Assembly: GCF_040358985.1 (NCBI RefSeq)
Contig: NZ_CP132932.1
Span: 1,054,001-1,118,000, forward strand
Length of the DNA: 64,000 nt
DNA from: Tunturibacter empetritectus
Lineage (GTDB): Bacteria > Acidobacteriota > Terriglobia > Terriglobales > Acidobacteriaceae
Direction of reading: 5' to 3'
A model generated the notes under the pieces. The model was not told the DNA's origin. It saw only the letters and a list, made by a program, of their open reading frames with translations, and searched no databases. Positions within the stretch are counted from its first letter, which is position 1, and every line of letters starts with the position of its first letter. Of the stretch, positions 3,010 through 23,430 are shown one piece after another. A program made the position numbers and the translations under genes.

Positions 3010-3789
3010 ATGCTCAAAAAGATCACCCTCCTGCGCGAACGAGTGGAAGACTGGACCGTCTACCCCTTCTCCGTCCCCACTATCGCCTCCCTGCCCGAGA
3101 TCTTCATCCACTCCCGCATCGCCTTCTTCGCGGGAGAAAACGGCACCGGGAAATCCACCCTCCTCGAAGCCATCGCCGCCCACTACGGCTTCGGCCCCGA
3201 AGGCGGCAACCGAAATCTTCAGTTCGAAACCAGCGACAGCTCGCGATCGGTTGAACGACTTACGCGAGCTCTGCGGCTTTCATTCGATATACGCACTGGA
3301 AAGGGATTCTACTTTCGTGCAGAAAGTCTATTCAGCCTTGCGACGCAGATCGACGAATGGGATAAGGACCCAGGCTCGGGTGGAAGGATCATTGATAGCT
3401 ATGGCGGGGTCTCACTCCATAACCATTCTCATGGCGAGACATTCTTTACCGTTCTTGACAACAAGTTCCGTAACTCTGGCCTCTTCCTCCTCGACGAACC
3501 CGAAGCCGCCCTCTCCCCGCAGCGCCAGCTGTCTTTCCTTATCCTCATCCGGGACACTCTCCGCCACTACAAAGACGCCCAGTTTCTCATCTCCACCCAC
3601 TCCCCCCTCCTTCTCGGCTACCCGGGCGCGCAGATCTTCTCCTTCGACGACGGCCACCTCCACGAGATCTCCTACGAAGACACTGCACCCCTTCAGATCG
3701 TCCGCCGTTTCACCAACGACCGCGACAGCTTCTTGGAAGAGCTCTTCGCGGAGCCCCCTTCCCTCTTCGGAGAACCCGACAAGCCGTAG
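3010..3789 (+). CDS. Stand-alone AAA (ABC/SMC-like) ATPase
   Basis: ATPase of 259 residues of the AAA_23/AAA_21 type seen in RecF/SMC/OLD-like proteins. Walker A is GENGTGKST near residues 44-52. Walker B is FLLDEPEAALS near 160-170, with the signature-like SPQRQLSF just after it and a His switch in ISTHSP near 197. No transmembrane segment or permease neighbour is present, so it is not an ABC importer. It stands alone between two copies of a 90-base direct repeat, which suggests a mobile or duplicated cassette. Similar short ATPases are sometimes partners of defence nucleases, but no nuclease gene is adjacent here. Function not assigned. Confidence 0.82.
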   Translation: MLKKITLLRERVEDWTVYPFSVPTIASLPEIFIHSRIAFFAGENGTGKSTLLEAIAAHYGFGPEGGNRNLQFETSDSSRSVERLTRALRLSFDIRTGKGFYFRAESLFSLATQIDEWDKDPGSGGRIIDSYGGVSLHNHSHGETFFTVLDNKFRNSGLFLLDEPEAALSPQRQLSFLILIRDTLRHYKDAQFLISTHSPLLLGYPGAQIFSFDDGHLHEISYEDTAPLQIVRRFTNDRDSFLEELFAEPPSLFGEPDKP

Positions 3790-3835
3790 CTCCTGGCCCA
3801 AGGCAAAAAAACCACCACGCAACACCACCGAAACA

Positions 3836-3930
3836 CCAGCAAAACACCATGTCAAGTCCACAAAACGTAAACACCCGCGCCAGCACTGAACAATCACGTG
3901 GCGTATGAGTTATGCAGCAATCTCTATAAT
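3836..3930. repeat. Direct repeat, copy 2, downstream of the AAA ATPase
   Basis: Second copy of the repeat at 2849-2941, same orientation. Shared landmarks are AGCAAAACACC, GTCAAGTCCACAAAACG, AACACCCGCGCCAGC and GTGGCGTATG. It starts about 45 bases after the ATPase stop. Confidence 0.75.
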
Positions 3931-3989
3931 GGATACAGGGGAATATGGGCACGGAACACAGGTGGATAAGTTCTACGCCCTTTTCATCG

Positions 3990-4133
3990 CTCTAACCCGT
4001 TTAGAAACAATATTTTGCAAGTAAGTCTTTTCGGTGGAATACTTTACAGCCGCATACCCTCTGCAAACCACTCCATCCAAACACTTTACGCCCAAAATAC
4101 CCCTCAAGGGGGAGGGGGGAGGTGTCAGGGGAC
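3990..4133. repeat. Dispersed intergenic repeat (uninterrupted copy)
   Basis: About 145 bases containing CTAACCCGTTTAGAAAC, CCCTCTGCAAA, ACTTTACGCCC and AATACCCCTC followed by a G-rich tract. A diverged copy in the opposite orientation lies at 20845-20920, continues at 22965-23036, and is split by the IS1595-type element. The 3790-4217 interval holds only this repeat and the repeat at 3836-3930. Confidence 0.6.
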
Positions 4134-4217
4134 GTCTAGAACTTGTGAAACATGAAAAACGCGCCGGTGATCAGGCAGCCGAAGGCTGCAAGTGCTAAAC
4201 GATAAGATGCAAAGAGC

Positions 4218-4916
4218 ATGTCCATCGCCGGAAACCTCGAACACCTTCACCAACAGATCCACGAAGCCTGCCGACGAGCCAACCGCTCCGACAGCGAAGT
4301 AGCCCTGATGGCAGTCAGCAAAGTCCACCCGGTCGAGGTCATCCTCGAAGCCTACACCGCCGGCCAGCGCCTCTTCGGCGAGAACCGGGTACAGGAGTTT
4401 CAGGAAAAGTCCCAGCACCTCACCGCATTGAACGACGCCGAGTTCCACCTCATCGGCCCGCTCCAATCCAACAAAACCGCCCGCGCAGCCGAGCTGTTCC
4501 ACGCCATCGACGCCGTCGACTCGCTGAAGATCGCACAACGGCTCGACGCGGCCGCCAAAGCACTGGGAAAGAAGCTGCCGATCTTGATCGAGGTGAAGCT
4601 GAGCCACGAGGAGTCCAAACATGGCCTCGACCCAGCCGAACTACCCGCTCTGCTCGCCGCGATAGAGCCGCTGGAGTCGGTAGAAGCCGTAGGCCTGATG
4701 ACGGTTCCACCGTGGTCCGAGGACGCAGAGCTGGCAAGGCCCTCCTTCCGCGACCTCCGCAAGCTGAGAGACCAGTCAGTCGCCAGCTTCCCGAAGCTGA
4801 CCCAGTTGTCCATAGGCATGTCGAACGACTTCGAGGTAGCGATCGAAGAGGGCAGCACCTGCGTCCGCGTTGGAACCGCCCTCTTCGGCAAACGGATCGT
4901 GGCCAGCGCAGGATGA
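4218..4916 (+). CDS. yggS: YggS family PLP homeostasis protein
   Basis: Member of the YggS/PROSC (PLPHP) family, 232 residues, the usual length. It binds pyridoxal phosphate and balances free PLP and amino-acid pools rather than catalysing a defined reaction. Visible family marks are AVSKVHP with the PLP lysine near residue 35, FGENRVQE, FHLIGPLQSNK, GLMTVPP, LSIGMSNDFEVAIEEGST and the C-terminal VRVGTALFG. The stop overlaps the start of the permease gene by the ATGA arrangement, so the two are translationally coupled. A TIM-barrel fold is expected from the family. Confidence 0.95.
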   Translation: MSIAGNLEHLHQQIHEACRRANRSDSEVALMAVSKVHPVEVILEAYTAGQRLFGENRVQEFQEKSQHLTALNDAEFHLIGPLQSNKTARAAELFHAIDAVDSLKIAQRLDAAAKALGKKLPILIEVKLSHEESKHGLDPAELPALLAAIEPLESVEAVGLMTVPPWSEDAELARPSFRDLRKLRDQSVASFPKLTQLSIGMSNDFEVAIEEGSTCVRVGTALFGKRIVASAG

Positions 4917-6328
4917 ACTCCGAGCCCAGAGCAGGTGAGCTCCATCGCGGCCTCTCCACCAGCGCTGCGCTGGGCCTCAACATCATCGACATGGTCGGAG
5001 TCGGCCCATTCGTCACGCTGCCCCTGATCGTCGGGGTCATGGGTGGACCGCAGGCGATGCTCGGCTGGCTGATGGGGGCCCTCCTCTCCCTCTGCGACGG
5101 CCTGATCTGGAGCGAACTCGGCACCGCCTATCCGGAGGCCGGCGGCTCTTACGCCTACCTGAAGCACCTCTATGGAGAGAAGACCTGGGGGCGGGCATTT
5201 TCTTTTCTCTACGCCTGGCAGGTCCTGATCAGCGCCCCCCTCTCGATCGCCTCCGGGTGTATAGGATTCGCACAATACCTCTCTTTCTTTCTTCCGAACA
5301 CGAGCCGTCCATTCGCCTCCACCTCGCTGCTCGGTGTTCCGGTGGTGTTGAGCGGACAGACGCTAATTGCAATGAGCGCGTGCGTAGCCGCCATGATCAT
5401 TCTGCACCGCAGTATCTTCGCCATCGGCCGAATCGCACGCTGGCTCGGAGTTGCCGTAGGTCTCACACTTATCTTGCTGATTGTGGTTGGATTTACCCAC
5501 TTCAACCCGCATCTGGCCTTCGACTTCCCAGCCGGTGCCTTTCATATCAACTCGGCATTCTTCGCCGGCCTCGGCGCTGGGATGCTGATCTCTGCCTACG
5601 ACTATTGGGGCTATTACGGGATATGCTTTCTGGGCGCTGAGGTCCGCGATCCCGAAAAGACTATTCCCCGAGCCGTACTGGGCTCAATCGGCGTTGTCGC
5701 GACACTCTATCTGCTGATGAACATAAGCGTTCTTGGCGTACTCCCATGGCGTGAGATGGCACAGAATACCGACAGCCACGCCCGCATGTTCACGATGGCA
5801 GTCTTCATGGAGAAGCTGTACGGGCATGCCGCCGCCGGAGTAATTGTTCTGCTAATCGCTTTTGCAGCGCTTGCATCCGTGTTTGCGCTATTGCTTGGAT
5901 ATTCGCGAATTCCGTTTGCCGCTGCTCGGGACGGTAACTTCCCCTCATGGTTTGGAGTTGTACATCCAAAATATCGAGTCCCAACGCACTCCCTGTTGAC
6001 CCTGGGCGGCATAACCCTGATGTGTTGCATCTTCAGGCTTCAGGAGGTCATTACGACTCTTGTAGTAATTCGCATCTTGTTTCAATTTCTTTTGCAGGGA
6101 ACGGCCGTGCTGCTGCCGAAGCATCGTCTCGCGCGTAAGACGCAAGGGTTTCGGATGCCGCTGTACCCACTGCCAGTATTGCTGGCGCTAAGTGGATTTG
6201 TCTTTATTCTCTTTTCGAGACCGAACTTCTTGCGGGAGATGAGGACAGCCGAACTAATCCTGGTAGCAGGCTCCATTGTCTATGCGCTGCGCTACATCAG
6301 CATCCGAAGGCGGACAGAAAAGAACTAG
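4913..6328 (+). CDS. APC superfamily amino acid permease
   Basis: Inner-membrane amino acid/polyamine-type permease of 471 residues with about 12 hydrophobic segments. The N-terminal stretch LGLNIIDMVGVGPFVTLP is the glycine-rich first helix typical of the APC family, and GGSYAYLKHLYG follows. The start ATG overlaps the yggS stop (ATGA); a longer open frame runs back into yggS but is its shadow. Coupling to a PLP homeostasis gene fits a role in amino acid uptake, though no substrate can be read from the sequence. No strong terminator follows; the downstream 115 bases include only a weak ACAGGC/GCCTGT hairpin. Confidence 0.9.
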   Translation: MNSEPRAGELHRGLSTSAALGLNIIDMVGVGPFVTLPLIVGVMGGPQAMLGWLMGALLSLCDGLIWSELGTAYPEAGGSYAYLKHLYGEKTWGRAFSFLYAWQVLISAPLSIASGCIGFAQYLSFFLPNTSRPFASTSLLGVPVVLSGQTLIAMSACVAAMIILHRSIFAIGRIARWLGVAVGLTLILLIVVGFTHFNPHLAFDFPAGAFHINSAFFAGLGAGMLISAYDYWGYYGICFLGAEVRDPEKTIPRAVLGSIGVVATLYLLMNISVLGVLPWREMAQNTDSHARMFTMAVFMEKLYGHAAAGVIVLLIAFAALASVFALLLGYSRIPFAAARDGNFPSWFGVVHPKYRVPTHSLLTLGGITLMCCIFRLQEVITTLVVIRILFQFLLQGTAVLLPKHRLARKTQGFRMPLYPLPVLLALSGFVFILFSRPNFLREMRTAELILVAGSIVYALRYISIRRRTEKN

Positions 6329-6444
6329 CGCAGAAGCCAATTGGAATAGATTTGATAACTCATTAGGTTTCGCCAGTTGAGACCCTTGGGTTTGAGAAAA
6401 AAATCATTTTAGACAGGCAATTATGGCCTGTTCGTCAACTCATG

Positions 6445-7026
6445 CTACCGAAAGTTATATGTGAGACCTGTACTAATTCTAATATTGTTTTGACGGTCGT
6501 TCGCGGCGTTGGGGATCTGCGTGTAGACATAGTCAAATTGAGCGATGGTCATGCCCAGCTTTCGCTTTAGTCGAGTGCTTACGCCTCCTCCTGCAGCTAA
6601 ACCAAACGAGTTGCGATTGATCGTGAATTGAAAATTGACATCCTCTTTCGCTCCGCCAAACAGTACTTCGCCATAAGGTACGAAACGACTTGAATTTCGG
6701 CGAGAGTACCGCACGCCAAAGAGATAGTTAATAATAGTGATGTTCTGCGAAGTGTTATCCACATTGTTAGCGTGGGCTACTGCGATATCGGCCACTGCGG
6801 CCCACACGGGCGTCACGTTCATTAATATAGTTCCACTGCCTCCATTGAGCGAGAAGCAACCACACTGACCCGGGGGTGCGTTCGCATGGAAGTAGTTATA
6901 GTTGGCACCCACCTCGAACCGCGGGATTTCGTAGTTGTTTCCACTCGTCGATATGGCCTGGGCATGCAGAACCCCGGACAAAGCGGATAGAAGTGTCAGC
7001 AGCAGGACGCTTCGAAGATGCATCAT
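6445..7026 (-). CDS. Small outer-membrane beta-barrel protein
   Basis: Predicted OmpA/OmpW-like barrel of about 193 residues. It has a Sec signal peptide ending LSGVLHAQA, alternating beta strands and a terminal aromatic strand (ISTGLTYNFR). Segments such as FEVGANYNYFHA and RYSRRNSSRFVPYGEVLFGG resemble the opacity-like barrels common in acidobacteria. The open frame can be extended to a TTG at 7044, but AGGAGAGG lies immediately before the tandem ATGs at 7026 and 7023, so one of these is the start (7023 has the better spacing). It begins 8 bases after the stop of the giant Ig-like gene, so the two form one transcription unit. Confidence 0.85.
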   Translation of the reverse strand: MMHLRSVLLLTLLSALSGVLHAQAISTSGNNYEIPRFEVGANYNYFHANAPPGQCGCFSLNGGSGTILMNVTPVWAAVADIAVAHANNVDNTSQNITIINYLFGVRYSRRNSSRFVPYGEVLFGGAKEDVNFQFTINRNSFGLAAGGGVSTRLKRKLGMTIAQFDYVYTQIPNAANDRQNNIRISTGLTYNFR

Positions 7027-19676: not shown

Positions 19677-20828
19677 TTGAGACAGATTGATCGGCGTGGA
19701 TTTATCTTCGGTTCGGCGGCTTTGACGGTGGCGGGGAGGGCTGGGTTTGCGGCCGGAAAGGATGGGGGGCGGCTGCTGGTCGGGACTCAGACCTCCGGCT
19801 CGAGCAAGGGGATCTATTCGTACTCCTTTGCGTCGTCGACGGGAGATTTGACGGCGCTCAGCCTTGCGGCTGAGGCGGAGAATCCTACGTTTCTGGCGCT
19901 GGCTCCTGACGGGAAGACCGTCGTCGTGGCGAATGAACTGGATAAGTTCGAGGGCAAGGACGGCGGGGCGGTATCGACTTTTACGCTGGATCGAACTAAG
20001 ACGCGGTTGTCCAAGGTCAGTCAGGTTGCCTCCGGGGGAGGGGGGACCTGTCACGTCGCGTTCGACCGGACTGGCAAGGCTGCGTTTGCTGCGAACTATG
20101 GCGGGGGCAGCGCGGCTTCGTTTGCGGTGGGAGCGGGCGGTGCATTGAGTCCCGCAGTTTCGTTCTTTCAGTACAGTGGACATGGACCGAATGCGGAGAG
20201 GCAGACGGCTCCTCATGCCCATCGCGTGACGGTGTCTCCTGATAACCGGTTTTTGCTGGTCAACGATCTGGGACTGGACACGGTCCACATCTATCGGCTG
20301 GATGCGGCTACGGCGAAGCTGGTGCCGAATGAGCCGGCGGCCTGGAAGTCTGCTCCGGGGGCTGGGCCTCGGGCGCTGCGGTTTCATCCGAACGGCAGGG
20401 TTGCGTACTGCGTCACCGAGATGACGTCTTCGGTGGTGGTGCTGCGATGGGACTCTGCGCGCGGGGCGCTTGAGACGGTGCAGGAGGTGGTGATGAGGCC
20501 TGCCGACTTTTCGGGTGTGAGCTCAGGGAACGATATCGTCATCGATCGGGAGGCAAAGTTTGCCTATGCGACCGACCGGTTTGACGACATTGTGGTCATC
20601 TTTGCAATCTCGCCGACCGATGGGAGGCTCAGCGTGGTGGACCGGATACCGTGCGGAGGCAAAGTTCCACGTCATCTGGCGCTTGATCCGAGTGGCCGGT
20701 GGCTGCTGATTGCCAATCAGGAGTCGGACAATATCTCGGTGCTGGCGCGTGATGAAAAGACGGGAAAGCTGACGGATGCGGGGAAGAGTTTTCCTTTGTC
20801 GCGGCCGCAGTGCCTGGTGTTTGTCTAG
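19677..20828 (+). CDS. Tat-exported lactonase-family beta-propeller
   Basis: Seven-bladed propeller of the 6-phosphogluconolactonase (YbhE/Pgl) family, about 383 residues. Typical segments are LALAPDGKTVVVANE, CHVAFDRTGKAAFAANYGGGSAASF, APHAHRVTVSPDNRFLLVNDLGLD, GPRALRFHPNGRVAY and VPRHLALDPSGRWLLIANQESDNI. An open frame from a GTG at 19650 exists, but AAGGAG followed by six bases precedes a TTG at 19677. Starting there gives MRQIDRRGFIFGSAAL, a clean twin-arginine signal. Because it is exported it is unlikely to be the cytoplasmic pentose-phosphate enzyme; related periplasmic proteins act on other lactones or carboxymuconate-type compounds. Confidence 0.85.
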   Translation: MRQIDRRGFIFGSAALTVAGRAGFAAGKDGGRLLVGTQTSGSSKGIYSYSFASSTGDLTALSLAAEAENPTFLALAPDGKTVVVANELDKFEGKDGGAVSTFTLDRTKTRLSKVSQVASGGGGTCHVAFDRTGKAAFAANYGGGSAASFAVGAGGALSPAVSFFQYSGHGPNAERQTAPHAHRVTVSPDNRFLLVNDLGLDTVHIYRLDAATAKLVPNEPAAWKSAPGAGPRALRFHPNGRVAYCVTEMTSSVVVLRWDSARGALETVQEVVMRPADFSGVSSGNDIVIDREAKFAYATDRFDDIVVIFAISPTDGRLSVVDRIPCGGKVPRHLALDPSGRWLLIANQESDNISVLARDEKTGKLTDAGKSFPLSRPQCLVFV

Positions 20829-20844
20829 TTCCTCCCTTTGAATC

Positions 20845-20920
20845 TCCTTTCCCCCTGGTACCCCCTCCCCCCCCGAGGGGTATCTTGGCGGTAAAGTTAT
20901 TCTATTCAGTAATTTGCAGA
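20845..20920. repeat. Dispersed repeat, left part, split by the IS element
   Basis: Reverse-complement relative of 3990-4133: a C-rich tract, GAGGGGTATCTTGGCGGTAAAGT, then TTTGCAGA at the insertion point. The remainder continues past the element at 22957-23036. Confidence 0.55.
20913..20920. repeat. Target-site duplication, left (TTTGCAGA)
   Basis: Eight bases identical to 22957-22964 and directly outside the left inverted repeat. Eight-base duplications are characteristic of IS1595-family insertion. Confidence 0.88.
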
Positions 20921-20969
20921 GGTAATAATATACTTGACTGAATATCGGTTAAGGGTTATGCTTTGATTC

Positions 20970-21920
20970 ATGGAATACCCCAAGACTTTAATCGAAGCGA
21001 TTCAATACTTTAGCAACCCAGACAACTGCCGGCAGTTCATGGTTGCCGTTCGCTGGGCCGACGGCGTTGTGCTCTGCCCAACTTGCGGCTCCGAGAAAGT
21101 CTCCTACCTCGAAAACGCCAAGCTTTACTTCTGCAAAGTGAAACATCCGAAACAGAAGTTCTCTCTCAAAGTCGGCACGATCTTCGAGGATTCCCCTATT
21201 GCCCTAGACAAGTGGCTTCCGGCTTTCTGGCTTCTATCGAATTGCAAAAATGGTATCAGCTCCTACGAGCTTGCCCGGGCTATCGGCGTCACCCAGAAAA
21301 GCGCTTGGTTCATGCTGCATCGCATCCGTGAGGTCATGAAGGATGCCAATACCTTTCAGATCGGCAACAGCCCCAAGAACCAAGTAGAGATTGATGAGAC
21401 TTACATCTCTGGCCTTCCCAAAAATCGCCACATCGGTCAGCGCGGCGTAGATGGCCGCAAGTCGATTGTGATGGGAATGAAGACCCGCACCACTCGCGAG
21501 GTTCGCGCTATGGTCATTCCTGATGCAAAGCGCACAACCCTACAGGACAAGATACTTGAGCATGTGGGCTGGGGATCGCACATCTACACCGATCAATGGG
21601 TTGGATACGACAAGCTGAGCGCAACGAATCACTTCGTTCACAAGACCGTAAATCACATGGTGGAGCACGTTAAGGGTGAAGTCCACACGAACGGCATCGA
21701 AAACTTCTGGGCACTTCTGAAGCGGACCCTAAAAGGAACATACGTTGCCGTTGAACCTTTCCACCTTGACGCCTATGTGACTGAGCAGGTTTGGCGGTTC
21801 AACAACAGCGGCAAGAAGATGAATGATGGCGCACGGTTCAAGAAGGCTCTATCGCAGGTAGTAGGAAAACGGTTGACCCTTGCCGAGGTCACGGGCAAGA
21901 CAGCAGAAAGACCGTTCTAG
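20970..21920 (+). CDS. IS1595 family (ISXO2-like) transposase
   Basis: Transposase of 316 residues, apparently intact. The N-terminal zinc-ribbon-like region has CPTCGSEKVSY, then YFCKVKHPKQKFSLKVGTIFEDS. A helix-turn-helix-like segment (SYELARAIGVTQKSAWFMLHRIREVM) follows. The catalytic domain has EIDETYISG (first Asp near residue 142), HIYTDQWVGYD (second Asp) and NGIENFWALLKRTLKGTY with the N-x-E-x-x-W motif that supplies the acidic third residue. It begins 26 bases inside the left inverted repeat. Its 3' end overlaps the convergent small ORF by 4 bases. Confidence 0.96.
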   Translation: MEYPKTLIEAIQYFSNPDNCRQFMVAVRWADGVVLCPTCGSEKVSYLENAKLYFCKVKHPKQKFSLKVGTIFEDSPIALDKWLPAFWLLSNCKNGISSYELARAIGVTQKSAWFMLHRIREVMKDANTFQIGNSPKNQVEIDETYISGLPKNRHIGQRGVDGRKSIVMGMKTRTTREVRAMVIPDAKRTTLQDKILEHVGWGSHIYTDQWVGYDKLSATNHFVHKTVNHMVEHVKGEVHTNGIENFWALLKRTLKGTYVAVEPFHLDAYVTEQVWRFNNSGKKMNDGARFKKALSQVVGKRLTLAEVTGKTAERPF

Positions 21921-22069
21921 GAGGCGACAGGGTCGGGGGAAGCGGAAGGTTTAGGCTTCTTGGCTACGACTCTTCTCATCAGCTCGGTGAACCTCCCAAA
22001 ATCTCCGGGAGTGTTCATCGTTTCTGGTTTTGGAGGTCTTTTCGCGGGGTCTACCCATTGCTTCTTCAT
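21917..22069 (-). CDS. Small hypothetical protein of the IS element
   Basis: A 50-residue basic protein (MKKQWVDPAKRPPKPE..., then DFGRFTELMRRVVAKKPKP). I know of no function for it, though small proteins of this sort accompany some IS1595 transposases. The ATG at 22069 is preferred because the extension to a GTG at 22153 reads through unrelated sequence. It has no clear ribosome site at normal spacing (AAGGTGGG lies about 13 bases upstream). Convergent with the transposase gene, with a 4-base overlap. Confidence 0.5.
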   Translation of the reverse strand: MKKQWVDPAKRPPKPETMNTPGDFGRFTELMRRVVAKKPKPSASPDPVAS

Positions 22070-22156
22070 GGATTGAATTATCCCACCTTTAAAAAAGATT
22101 TCCACAGGGTAAGATTGGAAAAAATAGCCCGTTTTAAGGCGTAGACCGCCCACTTC

Positions 22157-22189
22157 AATCGGTTACGCCGGCCCTGAGCGTAACCGATT
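22157..22189. promoter_or_regulatory. Perfect 12-base hairpin inside the IS element
   Basis: AATCGGTTACGC and its exact reverse complement GCGTAACCGATT are separated by 9 bases. It lies between the small minus-strand ORF and the Cas2-like gene. No U-run follows in either direction, so it is not a typical terminator; it may be an operator, an RNA structure or an element-specific recognition site. Confidence 0.55.
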
Positions 22190-22514
22190 ACTGGGGGAGA
22201 TTCAAGTTAAATCGTCTGGAATTAAGTACTTGCACGGCGAGTTTTCGTATTTCATTCACTTTTTGGATGTATATTACGGTATGCATGATGCTTGATATGA
22301 GATCCGACAGTTTCCGCTAGATCACCGCTAGCGGCGGCGCACAATGACGGAACCCTCGATTCGCGATCTCCCCTTGACAAGGAAAGCGAATCGAGGGCCA
22401 GGTGATCGAAGTCACACCCGCACCCGGATTGCTACGGGTGCGGCCATTTGGATCGGCTTGCGCCTTTCCGCTTCCAACCACTGTACCTCAACCGAAGAGC
22501 AAATAGGGGACGTG

Positions 22515-22799
22515 ATGGCACTTTATCTAGTTAGTTATGACATCAACGAAAAGAACAAGGATGAATACGAAGGCCTGTGGGCAGAATTGAAAAGCTTAGG
22601 GGCCACTAAAGTACTCTATTCAGAATACCTTGTTGTCCGGCCCGTCGGAGAATCCGAGAAGCTTTACGATTCCCTTACTTACGAAATAAAAACGAATGAT
22701 CGCTTGCTAGTTCAAGAGGTCCTAGCCGACGCACATTGGGACAAGCTACTCATTTCCGATGACGAAATGAGAAATCTCCTCAAGAGCGCCAGAAGGTAA
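22515..22799 (+). CDS. Cas2/SinR-like ferredoxin-fold protein (IS passenger)
   Basis: Protein of 94 residues. The first strand MALYLVSYDI, with an Asp near residue 9, then a helix, a second strand ATKVLYSEYLVV, a helix (GESEKLYDSLTYEI) and a strand DRLLVQEVL, reads as the ferredoxin-like fold shared by Cas2, VapD and stand-alone SinR-like proteins. Cas2 itself is a nuclease-fold subunit of the CRISPR integrase, but stand-alone relatives have no settled role. No cas1 or CRISPR array is in the window. The ATG at 22515 is preceded by AGGGGACGTG; a longer frame back to 22344 is unlike the family. It lies wholly inside the IS1595-type element, so it moves with it. The fold assignment is from sequence pattern only. 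Confidence 0.68.
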   Translation: MALYLVSYDINEKNKDEYEGLWAELKSLGATKVLYSEYLVVRPVGESEKLYDSLTYEIKTNDRLLVQEVLADAHWDKLLISDDEMRNLLKSARR

Positions 22800-22919
22800 C
22801 GGGGTGTATGGCGGGATAGGACCCGAACCAGTAGTCTTCGGAAACTGCCCGCCTAAACCTTCTTGATATTCCTCTATCAATACTTCCTCCTGCTGCCCTG
22901 TCACGGTATGTTCAATCAT
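22746..22919 (-). CDS. Possible small acidic protein at the right end of the IS element
   Basis: A 57-residue frame beginning MIEHTVTGQQEEVLIEEYQEG. AGGGAG lies 8 bases before the ATG, which is good evidence for translation. It overlaps the 3' end of the Cas2-like gene by 54 bases on the opposite strand and starts 15 bases inside the right inverted repeat. No family recognised; the unusual overlap makes this a tentative call. Confidence 0.35.
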   Translation of the reverse strand: MIEHTVTGQQEEVLIEEYQEGLGGQFPKTTGSGPIPPYTPLPSGALEEISHFVIGNE

Positions 22920-22956
22920 CTTCTTTCTCCCTAATTCAGTCAAGTATATTATTACC

Positions 22957-22964
22957 TTTGCAGA
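22957..22964. repeat. Target-site duplication, right (TTTGCAGA)
   Basis: Identical to 20913-20920. On this side it is followed by GGGGTGATG and then TCTGCAAA, so the original target was one arm of an inverted repeat. Confidence 0.88.
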
Positions 22965-23041
22965 GGGGTGATGTCTGCAAAATGTAGAAACCAGAAGGCT
23001 TGTGCCTAAAATACTTGTTATCAATTAGTTAGCACGGCAAC

Positions 23042-23073
23042 AAAAAGCCCCGGGCTTAGAGCCGGGGCTTTTT
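23042..23073. terminator. Bidirectional intrinsic terminator
   Basis: AAAAAGCCCCGG, an 8-base loop region and CCGGGGCTTTTT form a strong GC-rich stem flanked by A and T runs, so it can terminate on either strand. It lies at the far end of the dispersed repeat split by the IS element; before insertion it would have followed the lactonase gene. Confidence 0.8.
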
Positions 23074-23235
23074 ATCTATGTATCAATTATAGCGTCTGGC
23101 ATGTAACTTATACGCCACGCGTAATGTACTGAATTGAATTGGGTTATGCGATTTGGAGGCTTGACAGAGTTTTGGTCTTCGCGACTAGCCGAGCTCCTTT
23201 GAAAGATCGTTTTGATCGGGCTTTCTTTAAGCTTT

Positions 23236-23310
23236 AAGTACGCCCTGCGCGGGCGGCGGTCACTTCGTGACTTGTATACCCTCTGGTTGGCGCTCCCGTT
23301 GTTCGCGAAG
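23236..23310. repeat. Dispersed intergenic repeat family, copy A
   Basis: Contains CGCCCTGCGCGGGCGGC, the short palindrome GTCACTTCGTGAC, TTGTATACCCTC and GGTTGGCGCTCCCGTTG. Copies lie at 25211-25377, 31771-31875, 43019-43187 and 53354-53440. The 23074-23430 interval has no other recognisable feature. Confidence 0.75.
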
Positions 23311-23430
23311 AAAGATGACTTGCGACTTTGAGAGCGTAATTTTTGTTATTGCGACTTGGCTGTCTAACCGGTTAGGTGGTATAAAGATCTCGCATCCAGG
23401 AAGACGGGCAATAGAGAGCGGGATACGCCG

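Follow-up and report, generated by a model that had tools for sequence, protein, structure and literature searches.

The transposon considered here occupies positions 20921-22956 of the window, by which I mean the whole 64,000-nucleotide stretch of the Tunturibacter empetritectus genome that was analysed (contig NZ_CP132932.1, positions 1,054,001 to 1,118,000), and it is an IS1595-family (IS, insertion sequence) modular cargo transposon in which a left inverted repeat, a transposase, a small convergent gene and a right inverted repeat stay constant and a slot between them is swappable. In the window this slot holds the gene of a 94-residue protein predicted to have the Cas2 fold and, upstream of it, a structured RNA, and the account that I consider probable is that of a modular cargo transposon whose Cas2-fold/structured-RNA cassette is defence- or addiction-like and not a transposition factor.

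Constant frame and changing cargo

The sister element L044 encodes a transposase 95.6% identical to that of the window and its DNA is 86% identical over element positions 1-1024; the window transposase ends at element position 1000, so the cargo changes about 24 bp later, and beyond 1024 the two have in common only a 48-bp stretch of the small open reading frame (ORF) and the right end. The same is seen in L133 and L142, where the transposases are 96% identical, the DNA is 84% identical to position 1176, past the small-ORF region, and only the last 25 bp match thereafter. Since the cargo changes behind near-identical transposases, the element counts as a modular cargo transposon and as a variant of the passenger-carrying IS1595 elements known as tIS. 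The cargo of L044 includes an ImmA/IrrE-type (capP-like) peptidase gene, the insertion of which pushes the small convergent ORF about 950 bp from the transposase.

The Cas2-like gene itself is present in only 2 of 57 delimited elements (tblastn on 40 loci; blastp at E 1e-4 against ORFs of at least 80 aa of all 57), namely the window element and L050, whose transposases are 56% identical, and L044, L046, L045 and L047, which lie between these two in the transposase tree, are all without it. In L050 the transposase stretch is interrupted by two stops and the Cas2-like frame is intact; the element comes from genome G525 (same contig as L090), which is assigned to the genus of the window with 6% contamination and whose contig is titled Rhodanobacteraceae. 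The sequence-only reading of this DNA had called the gene a passenger, which agrees with its position inside the repeats and the lack of a counterpart in the sister element. Among cargo ORFs of at least 80 aa, a list that includes some overlapping or spurious frames, 72 of 106 match none of the rest at E 1e-4.

These comparisons draw on 76 loci (transposase identity 48-96%), collected from the better hits of family and genus searches together with the window; in the transposase search of 150 family genomes 85 matched at E up to 1e-20, and the genomes sampled were as a rule one per species, many of them metagenome-assembled. Delimited elements are those in which both ends were found, with at least 18/24 matches in the inverted repeats and 7/8 in the target-site duplication, as was the case for 57 of the 76, the other 19 being excluded from the counts; with downstream sequence shuffled, a pair above the scan floor (repeat 15/24, duplication 7/8) appeared in 5 of the 76 loci. 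The 57 elements measure 1727-4584 bp, all carry cargo beyond the transposase (717-3582 bp), 54 have a perfect 8-bp duplication and 53 have GG at both ends, and no bare element occurs among them, though the end scan could have reported such. A second IS1595 clade (20 loci, 32-37% identity) failed as a cargo-negative control, as it carries cargo too: 14 elements with clear ends (repeats 19-23/24) have 879-2583 bp beyond the transposase, two loci have weak ends (14/24) and four have none, and bare elements were not found in these 20 loci. Seven members of this clade (L170, L171, L172, L174, L177, L178 and L179) encode related-looking proteins of 280-370 aa starting like MTVGVGFLCADGVMLCAD, which by eye are proteasome/Ntn-hydrolase-like.

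As for the window copy, its exact ends, 8-base duplications, IS1595 assignment and intact transposase had all been read from the letters beforehand and all hold: the repeats are identical to each other over 23 bp, TTTGCAGA stands on both sides (repeat 23/24 and duplication 8/8 in the end scan), and the unbroken transposase scores 171 bits against NF033547 (cut-off 75), 123 against PF12762 (cut-off 27) and 32.9 against PF12760 (cut-off 25.4). Inverted repeats starting with GG and an 8-bp target duplication are typical of the IS1595 family, and the window element has both. In the same-species genome G155 the target (L059) is uninterrupted, with one TTTGCAGA and no element; from the perfect ends, the duplications and this empty site it follows that the element arrived by transposition, probably recently. 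It is single-copy in its own genome (5.03 Mb, 3 contigs), and a search of 72,556 plasmid records gave no close relative of its transposase, with 45 matches that all fall below 60% identity and a best value of 37.6% among the 40 of them listed.

The small convergent ORF more likely starts at 22069, for a length of about 50 aa, and a minus-strand ORF of at most 110 aa with the same offset and overlapping stop codons is found in 37 of the 57 delimited elements. Its alignment (42 rows, of which at least L050 and L130 look false) has by eye a shared core F..F...MR..L.VP, and of 13 pairs submitted to NG86 the 11 reported all have fewer nonsynonymous than synonymous substitutions per site (dN < dS), with ratios of 0.13-0.36 in the eight with unsaturated dS and saturation in the other three. 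The window copy has no Pfam, NCBIfam or PHROG match and two other copies have no NCBIfam match, and I infer a conserved accessory gene of the transposon. Neither this ORF nor the structured RNA figures in the sequence-only reading. CTAG as the general form of the stop-codon overlap was rejected, as it ends only 10 of the 57 transposases.

What else the slot can hold was surveyed in 77 chosen cargo proteins, a selection of the ORFs, which at E 0.001 matched 28 Pfam families: DUF3800 is the commonest named (10 of 77), Peptidase_M78, RelA_SpoT and DUF6941 occur twice each, and the single matches include AIPR, a SocA-like antitoxin, an AbiEii-like AAA protein, Schlafen AlbA_2 and a D12 methyltransferase, with many cargo ORFs matching no Pfam family. 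Related DUF3800 proteins recur in otherwise different elements (e.g. L053, L065, L066 and L083). PADLOC identified PD-Lambda-5 A and B in L140 (E 2.4e-114 and 1.1e-110), AbiU in L064 (1.5e-139), an AbiLi-like protein in L054 (2.7e-43) and a candidate PDC-S33 in L071 (2.3e-93), and at E of 1e-20 or better it reported 31 models (models, not proteins) for the 77 cargo proteins and 5 for 77 flank proteins drawn at random from 183 flank ORFs.

Table 1. Features of the window element, in positions of the window
Feature	Position	Strand	Remarks
Left target-site duplication	20913..20920	.	TTTGCAGA; matches the single copy at the L059 empty site
Left inverted repeat, 23 bp	20921..20943	+	
IS1595-family transposase, 316 aa, intact	20970..21920	+	NF033547, PF12762, PF12760
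Convergent small ORF	21917..22153	-	78 aa as listed; stop overlaps transposase stop
Hairpin 1 and conserved flanks	22330..22415	+	12-bp stem 22353-22364 / 22386-22397; models R1-R3
Hairpin 2, 9-bp stem	22418..22443	+	loop GATTGCTA; common to the window and L050/L090 only
Cas2-fold protein (predicted), 94 aa	22515..22799	+	phrog_1090 family
Right inverted repeat, 23 bp	22934..22956	-	
Right target-site duplication	22957..22964	.	second TTTGCAGA copy

Just right of the element, at 23236-23326, lies an 80-90-bp stretch of an interspersed repeat, matching many places in the window's genome and in those of other members of the genus (about 82-94% identity).

The Cas2-fold protein

A Cas2/VapD-type fold and an early aspartate had been proposed for the 94-residue protein from its sequence pattern, and structure prediction, Foldseek, VIA and the alignment of relatives all bear this out. 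The AlphaFold model built from a 29-row alignment (predicted local distance difference test, pLDDT, 90.5; predicted template modelling score, pTM, 0.82) has VIA Z-scores of 9.5 with Cas2 (4es3), 8.1 with BPSL1038, 7.9 with GhoS and 7.3 with VapD (6zi1); in Foldseek no PDB entry reached E 1e-3 (best 1.7e-3), and the first ten rows carry the titles Cas2, CRISPR, RNase SSO8090 or hypothetical protein, the last of which I take to be Cas2. On the strength of the predicted model the fold class, ferredoxin-like and of Cas2 type, is firm. In the alignment Y4, Y8, D9, Y18, S36 and D62 are invariant among the 29 relatives, D9 being the aspartate that aligns at the catalytic position. By sequence profile the protein misses the Cas2 cut-offs (16.1 of 23.8 bits for PF09827, 16.2 of 24.5 bits for TIGR01573), and it matches phrog_1090 over residues 1-78 (E 3.9e-10, 40.8 bits).

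The start was chosen because the relatives begin MALYL and a longer frame runs through the hairpin, so that a 151-aa reading from 22344 was set aside; the 94-aa ORF is supported by AGGGG upstream, by a relative of 60% identity that starts at the same place, by the Cas2-type model and by the pattern of substitutions. In the one pair compared, in which synonymous sites are saturated, the proportion of nonsynonymous differences (pN) is 0.25 against 0.77 for synonymous ones (pS), a sign of purifying selection.

Relatives were found at no fewer than 13 loci in genome contigs and at least 25 in viral contigs, each set obtained with one degenerate pattern and hence incomplete, and further in 7 Enterococcus phage records and one Klebsiella plasmid. 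In Enterococcus phage phiFL1A the sinR-like gp05 (L005 3001-3279) lies between the CI repressor and anti-repressor genes, and in the 4.15-kb Klebsiella plasmid pHNLW22-3 the relative (L004 541-810) is the last in a tight group of three hypothetical genes. Only 2 of 396 genomes in the phylum sample match, the window's own included, and of 62 genomes in the genus sample only that of the window and G525 match convincingly; five further places (E 0.0025-0.0034), including one in the genome of the window, are 44-residue matches in frames of 654-659 aa and were not counted.

The hairpin RNA unit

Between the window and L090 the flanks of the two hairpins upstream of the Cas2-like gene are conserved and the stems differ, both partners being different in 8 of 21 pairs and no pair broken (2 of 9, none broken, for hairpin 2). 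With six sequences all 72 stem cells of hairpin 1 are paired and 12 of 12 pairs covary, against a shuffled mean of 4.9, in an alignment fitted to the model, a procedure biased towards pairing that was not applied to the two- and three-sequence alignments. With model R1, hairpin 1 turned up in L046 (32.6 bits; E 4.6e-6 in 557 kb searched), which lacks the Cas2-like gene and whose transposase is 77% identical; R2, from three sequences, found G607 among 398 family genomes (per-genome E 1.1e-6); and R3, from four, found G296 among 396 phylum genomes (7.5e-6) and G762 among 270 class genomes (4.1e-4), each of the four being detected by a model built without it. The last was kept despite its doubtful E-value because it has 12 intact pairs, a tRNA at the end and a transposase ORF beside it. 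G525 is absent from the R2 and R3 results, for which the samples may not have included it.

What follows hairpin 1 varies. A same-strand tRNA above the Rfam cut-off stands within about 20 nt of the model end in G607 (46.3 bits), G296 (55.5 bits) and G762 (49.6 bits); in L046 two tandem tRNA-like folds (4205-4370) follow inside the transposon, one of them with a Tymovirus tRNA-like match of 22.8 bits, below the cut-off of 40; and in the window and L090 hairpin 2 takes the place of the tRNA. The G607 unit is inside an IS1595 element of 2361 bp (duplication CTAAATCG, repeats 19/24), and that of G296 in an element of 3346 bp from the sister family IS1 (L221, reverse complement, 3561-6906; duplication GGCAACCG, repeats 19/24), whose transposase has its best match, NF033558, at 52 bits, below the cut-off of 100, and whose cargo comprises a DUF5343 protein before the hairpin-tRNA unit and a 103-aa ORF nearby. 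In G762 the ORF starting about 45 bp after the tRNA is by eye an IS1595-type transposase, and no element ends were found within 3 kb.

Elsewhere the hairpin was sought in 93 other loci of both clades with no convincing result (best 15.4 bits), and the weak R3 hits L196-L202 (21-24 bits) were dropped, as their stems are broken, shortened or absent, no tRNA is adjacent (the nearest to L202 is about 1.4 kb away) and their per-genome E of 0.01-0.045 over 396 genomes lets about 20 be expected by chance; G528 (22.6 bits with R1) was dropped likewise. In RNA searches of more than 40 genomes strict filters lose weak members. Rfam 15, applied to window positions 20800-23100 and to L046, L050, L190, L194, L195 and L223, had only tRNA genes reaching the cut-off, and the opposite strand gave a c-di-GMP riboswitch match so weak (17.7 bits; cut-off 59) that I put it down to chance. 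The RNA antitoxin of type III toxin-antitoxin systems consists of tandem direct repeats, and no direct repeats of 10 nt or more exist inside 22330-22515, unlike such an antitoxin. A tRNA-like reading near the Cas2-like gene was not supported, and ARAGORN at very low thresholds returned noise only. DUF5343 was rejected as the partner of the hairpin-tRNA unit, since none of its 18 loci in 199 genomes has an ARAGORN tRNA, an Rfam match or a convincing hairpin (best 11.5 bits); neither ARAGORN nor Rfam nor R3 bore out a fold in L168 that by eye resembled DUF5343-hairpin-tRNA; and the faint by-eye likeness of the 103-aa protein to SinR-like proteins came out at 19% probability in profile comparison.

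Readings of the cassette and known systems

By analogy with the proteins of its fold, the Cas2-like protein would be a nucleic-acid-binding protein or nuclease acting through the invariant Asp9 and perhaps Ser36, the hairpin RNA would be its regulator, substrate or partner, or else a neighbour with a tRNA-linked role, and the cassette would help or addict the host. An addiction or defence role for the Cas2-like gene is plausible, and that the cassette is kept as cargo of this kind, and not as a transposition factor, is something I would propose tentatively. Several observations pull the other way: the best match of the protein to a defence model is only E 0.0008 (Cas2b); no partner antitoxin gene was identified beside its gene; the hairpin occurs without the Cas2-like gene in four other loci, and the tie between the two rests on two cases because only two elements hold the gene; and the apparent defence-gene excess in the cargo is only suggestive, because models were counted and many of them are variants of one system, PD-Lambda-5. 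A winged-helix-looking protein before the L050 unit has a weak AbiEi-antitoxin-like match (E 0.024, 14 of 150 bits), at most a lead. Nor has the idea of a transposition helper, also voiced in the sequence-only reading, fared well. A helper or regulatory role, say as a DNA-binding protein that partners the transposase, would fit the gene's place inside the repeats, and in CRISPR Cas2 does work with an integrase; yet the gene is missing from the sister L044 and from 55 of the 56 other delimited elements, L050 alone having it, and because L044 carries other cargo behind almost the same transposase I regard such a partnership as extremely improbable. That reading had also named what would count against it, and here the outcome is divided: related elements do regularly lack the gene, but purifying selection on it is present. 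This selection also speaks against the notion that the cargo is randomly captured host DNA under none, which fits the 72 of 106 cargo ORFs without a relative and the many without a Pfam family, and which the covarying RNA and the absence of any delimited element without cargo further make very unlikely.

For the RNA the choice is wider. Hairpin 1 might have no system-like role and serve the downstream gene or tRNA, whichever it is, as leader, attenuator or processing signal, the Cas2-like gene then being unrelated cargo. This would suit the variable downstream part, which is a tRNA in G607, G296 and G762, tRNA-like folds in L046, and hairpin 2 with the Cas2-like gene in the window and L090. 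Against it, a fixed 12-bp stem and conserved flanks recur across transposons of two families, company in which one would not expect a plain leader, and I hold this explanation to be unlikely without dismissing it. The three tRNAs above the Rfam cut-off could instead mean that the unit supplies tRNA, as a mobile gene preceded by a hairpin, and so helps to translate rare codons, the window and L090 copies having lost the tRNA, an option that seems distinctly improbable given that three of the six units have no such tRNA and that the hairpin 2 standing in its place is conserved with compensatory changes. The boldest alternative, possible and yet doubtful, is a new transposon-borne RNA with conserved flanks around a 12-bp stem of freely changing sequence, joined to a tRNA, to tRNA-like folds or to a second hairpin, common to IS1595 and IS1 elements of Acidobacteriota, and accompanied by changing small proteins, one of them a Cas2-fold nuclease, in a tRNA-centred defence or addiction system; if this holds, minimal transposons would be a place outside CRISPR where structured RNAs and Cas2-like proteins come together.

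Whichever reading of the cassette prevails, a compact family with one transposase and a constant left end, exchanging what lies behind it, samples small genes that are mostly uncharacterised, along with some recognised defence genes, and its unnamed cargo, DUF3800 and others, offers candidates for defence screens. A tRNA accompanies the covarying hairpin in half of the cases, and this hairpin is a candidate new RNA family; the occurrence outside CRISPR of a predicted Cas2-fold protein next to a structured RNA is relevant to the role of stand-alone Cas2-like proteins. In the literature on IS1595 cargo and defence, Cas2-like/SinR phage proteins, DUF5343 and tRNA-hairpin noncoding RNA, covered mostly at the level of titles and with few subscription papers, no counterpart of the hairpin unit was recognised, and it may be new in kind.

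The transposon, by comparison, is a variant of the known tIS, IS1595-family elements with passenger genes such as tISCpe8 and MTnSag1/tISSag10 (PMC5704250, whose references include Siguier et al. 2009), with which it shares a DDE transposase of the IS1595 type and passenger genes enclosed by inverted repeats of about 25 bp, the window having a non-transposition gene between its repeats. The tIS described there are mobilizable or resistance elements, whereas in the window clade the cargo differs in most copies and a constant convergent small gene and a covarying RNA are added. Bare IS1595 members do exist elsewhere, since the Ralstonia elements are given as 700-1287 bp in PMC7371123. Tn7-like transposons, which according to PMC8649781 carry defence cargo, are similar in that most elements have cargo including defence genes, and differ in that the window clade has one transposase and a length of about 1.7-4.6 kb, with no Tn7 machinery seen. 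Turning to the protein, Cas2 is alike in predicted fold and in the aspartate that ends strand 1, and differs from the 94-aa protein, which falls below the Pfam and NCBIfam thresholds and is encoded in a transposon, by a gene that stands alone. In VapD toxins and BPSL1038, too, a stand-alone Cas2-like fold goes with a conserved aspartate, through which both BPSL1038 (PMC10491678) and VapD (PMC11980593) are reported to act on nucleic acid; a VapX/VapY/VapW-like partner was not identified for the window protein, and in place of the SST turn of BPSL1038 it has S36-E-Y. The SinR-like phage proteins (phrog_1090, phiFL1A gp05) belong to the same sequence family at 29-33% identity and sit in phages or plasmids, whereas the window gene travels in an insertion sequence.

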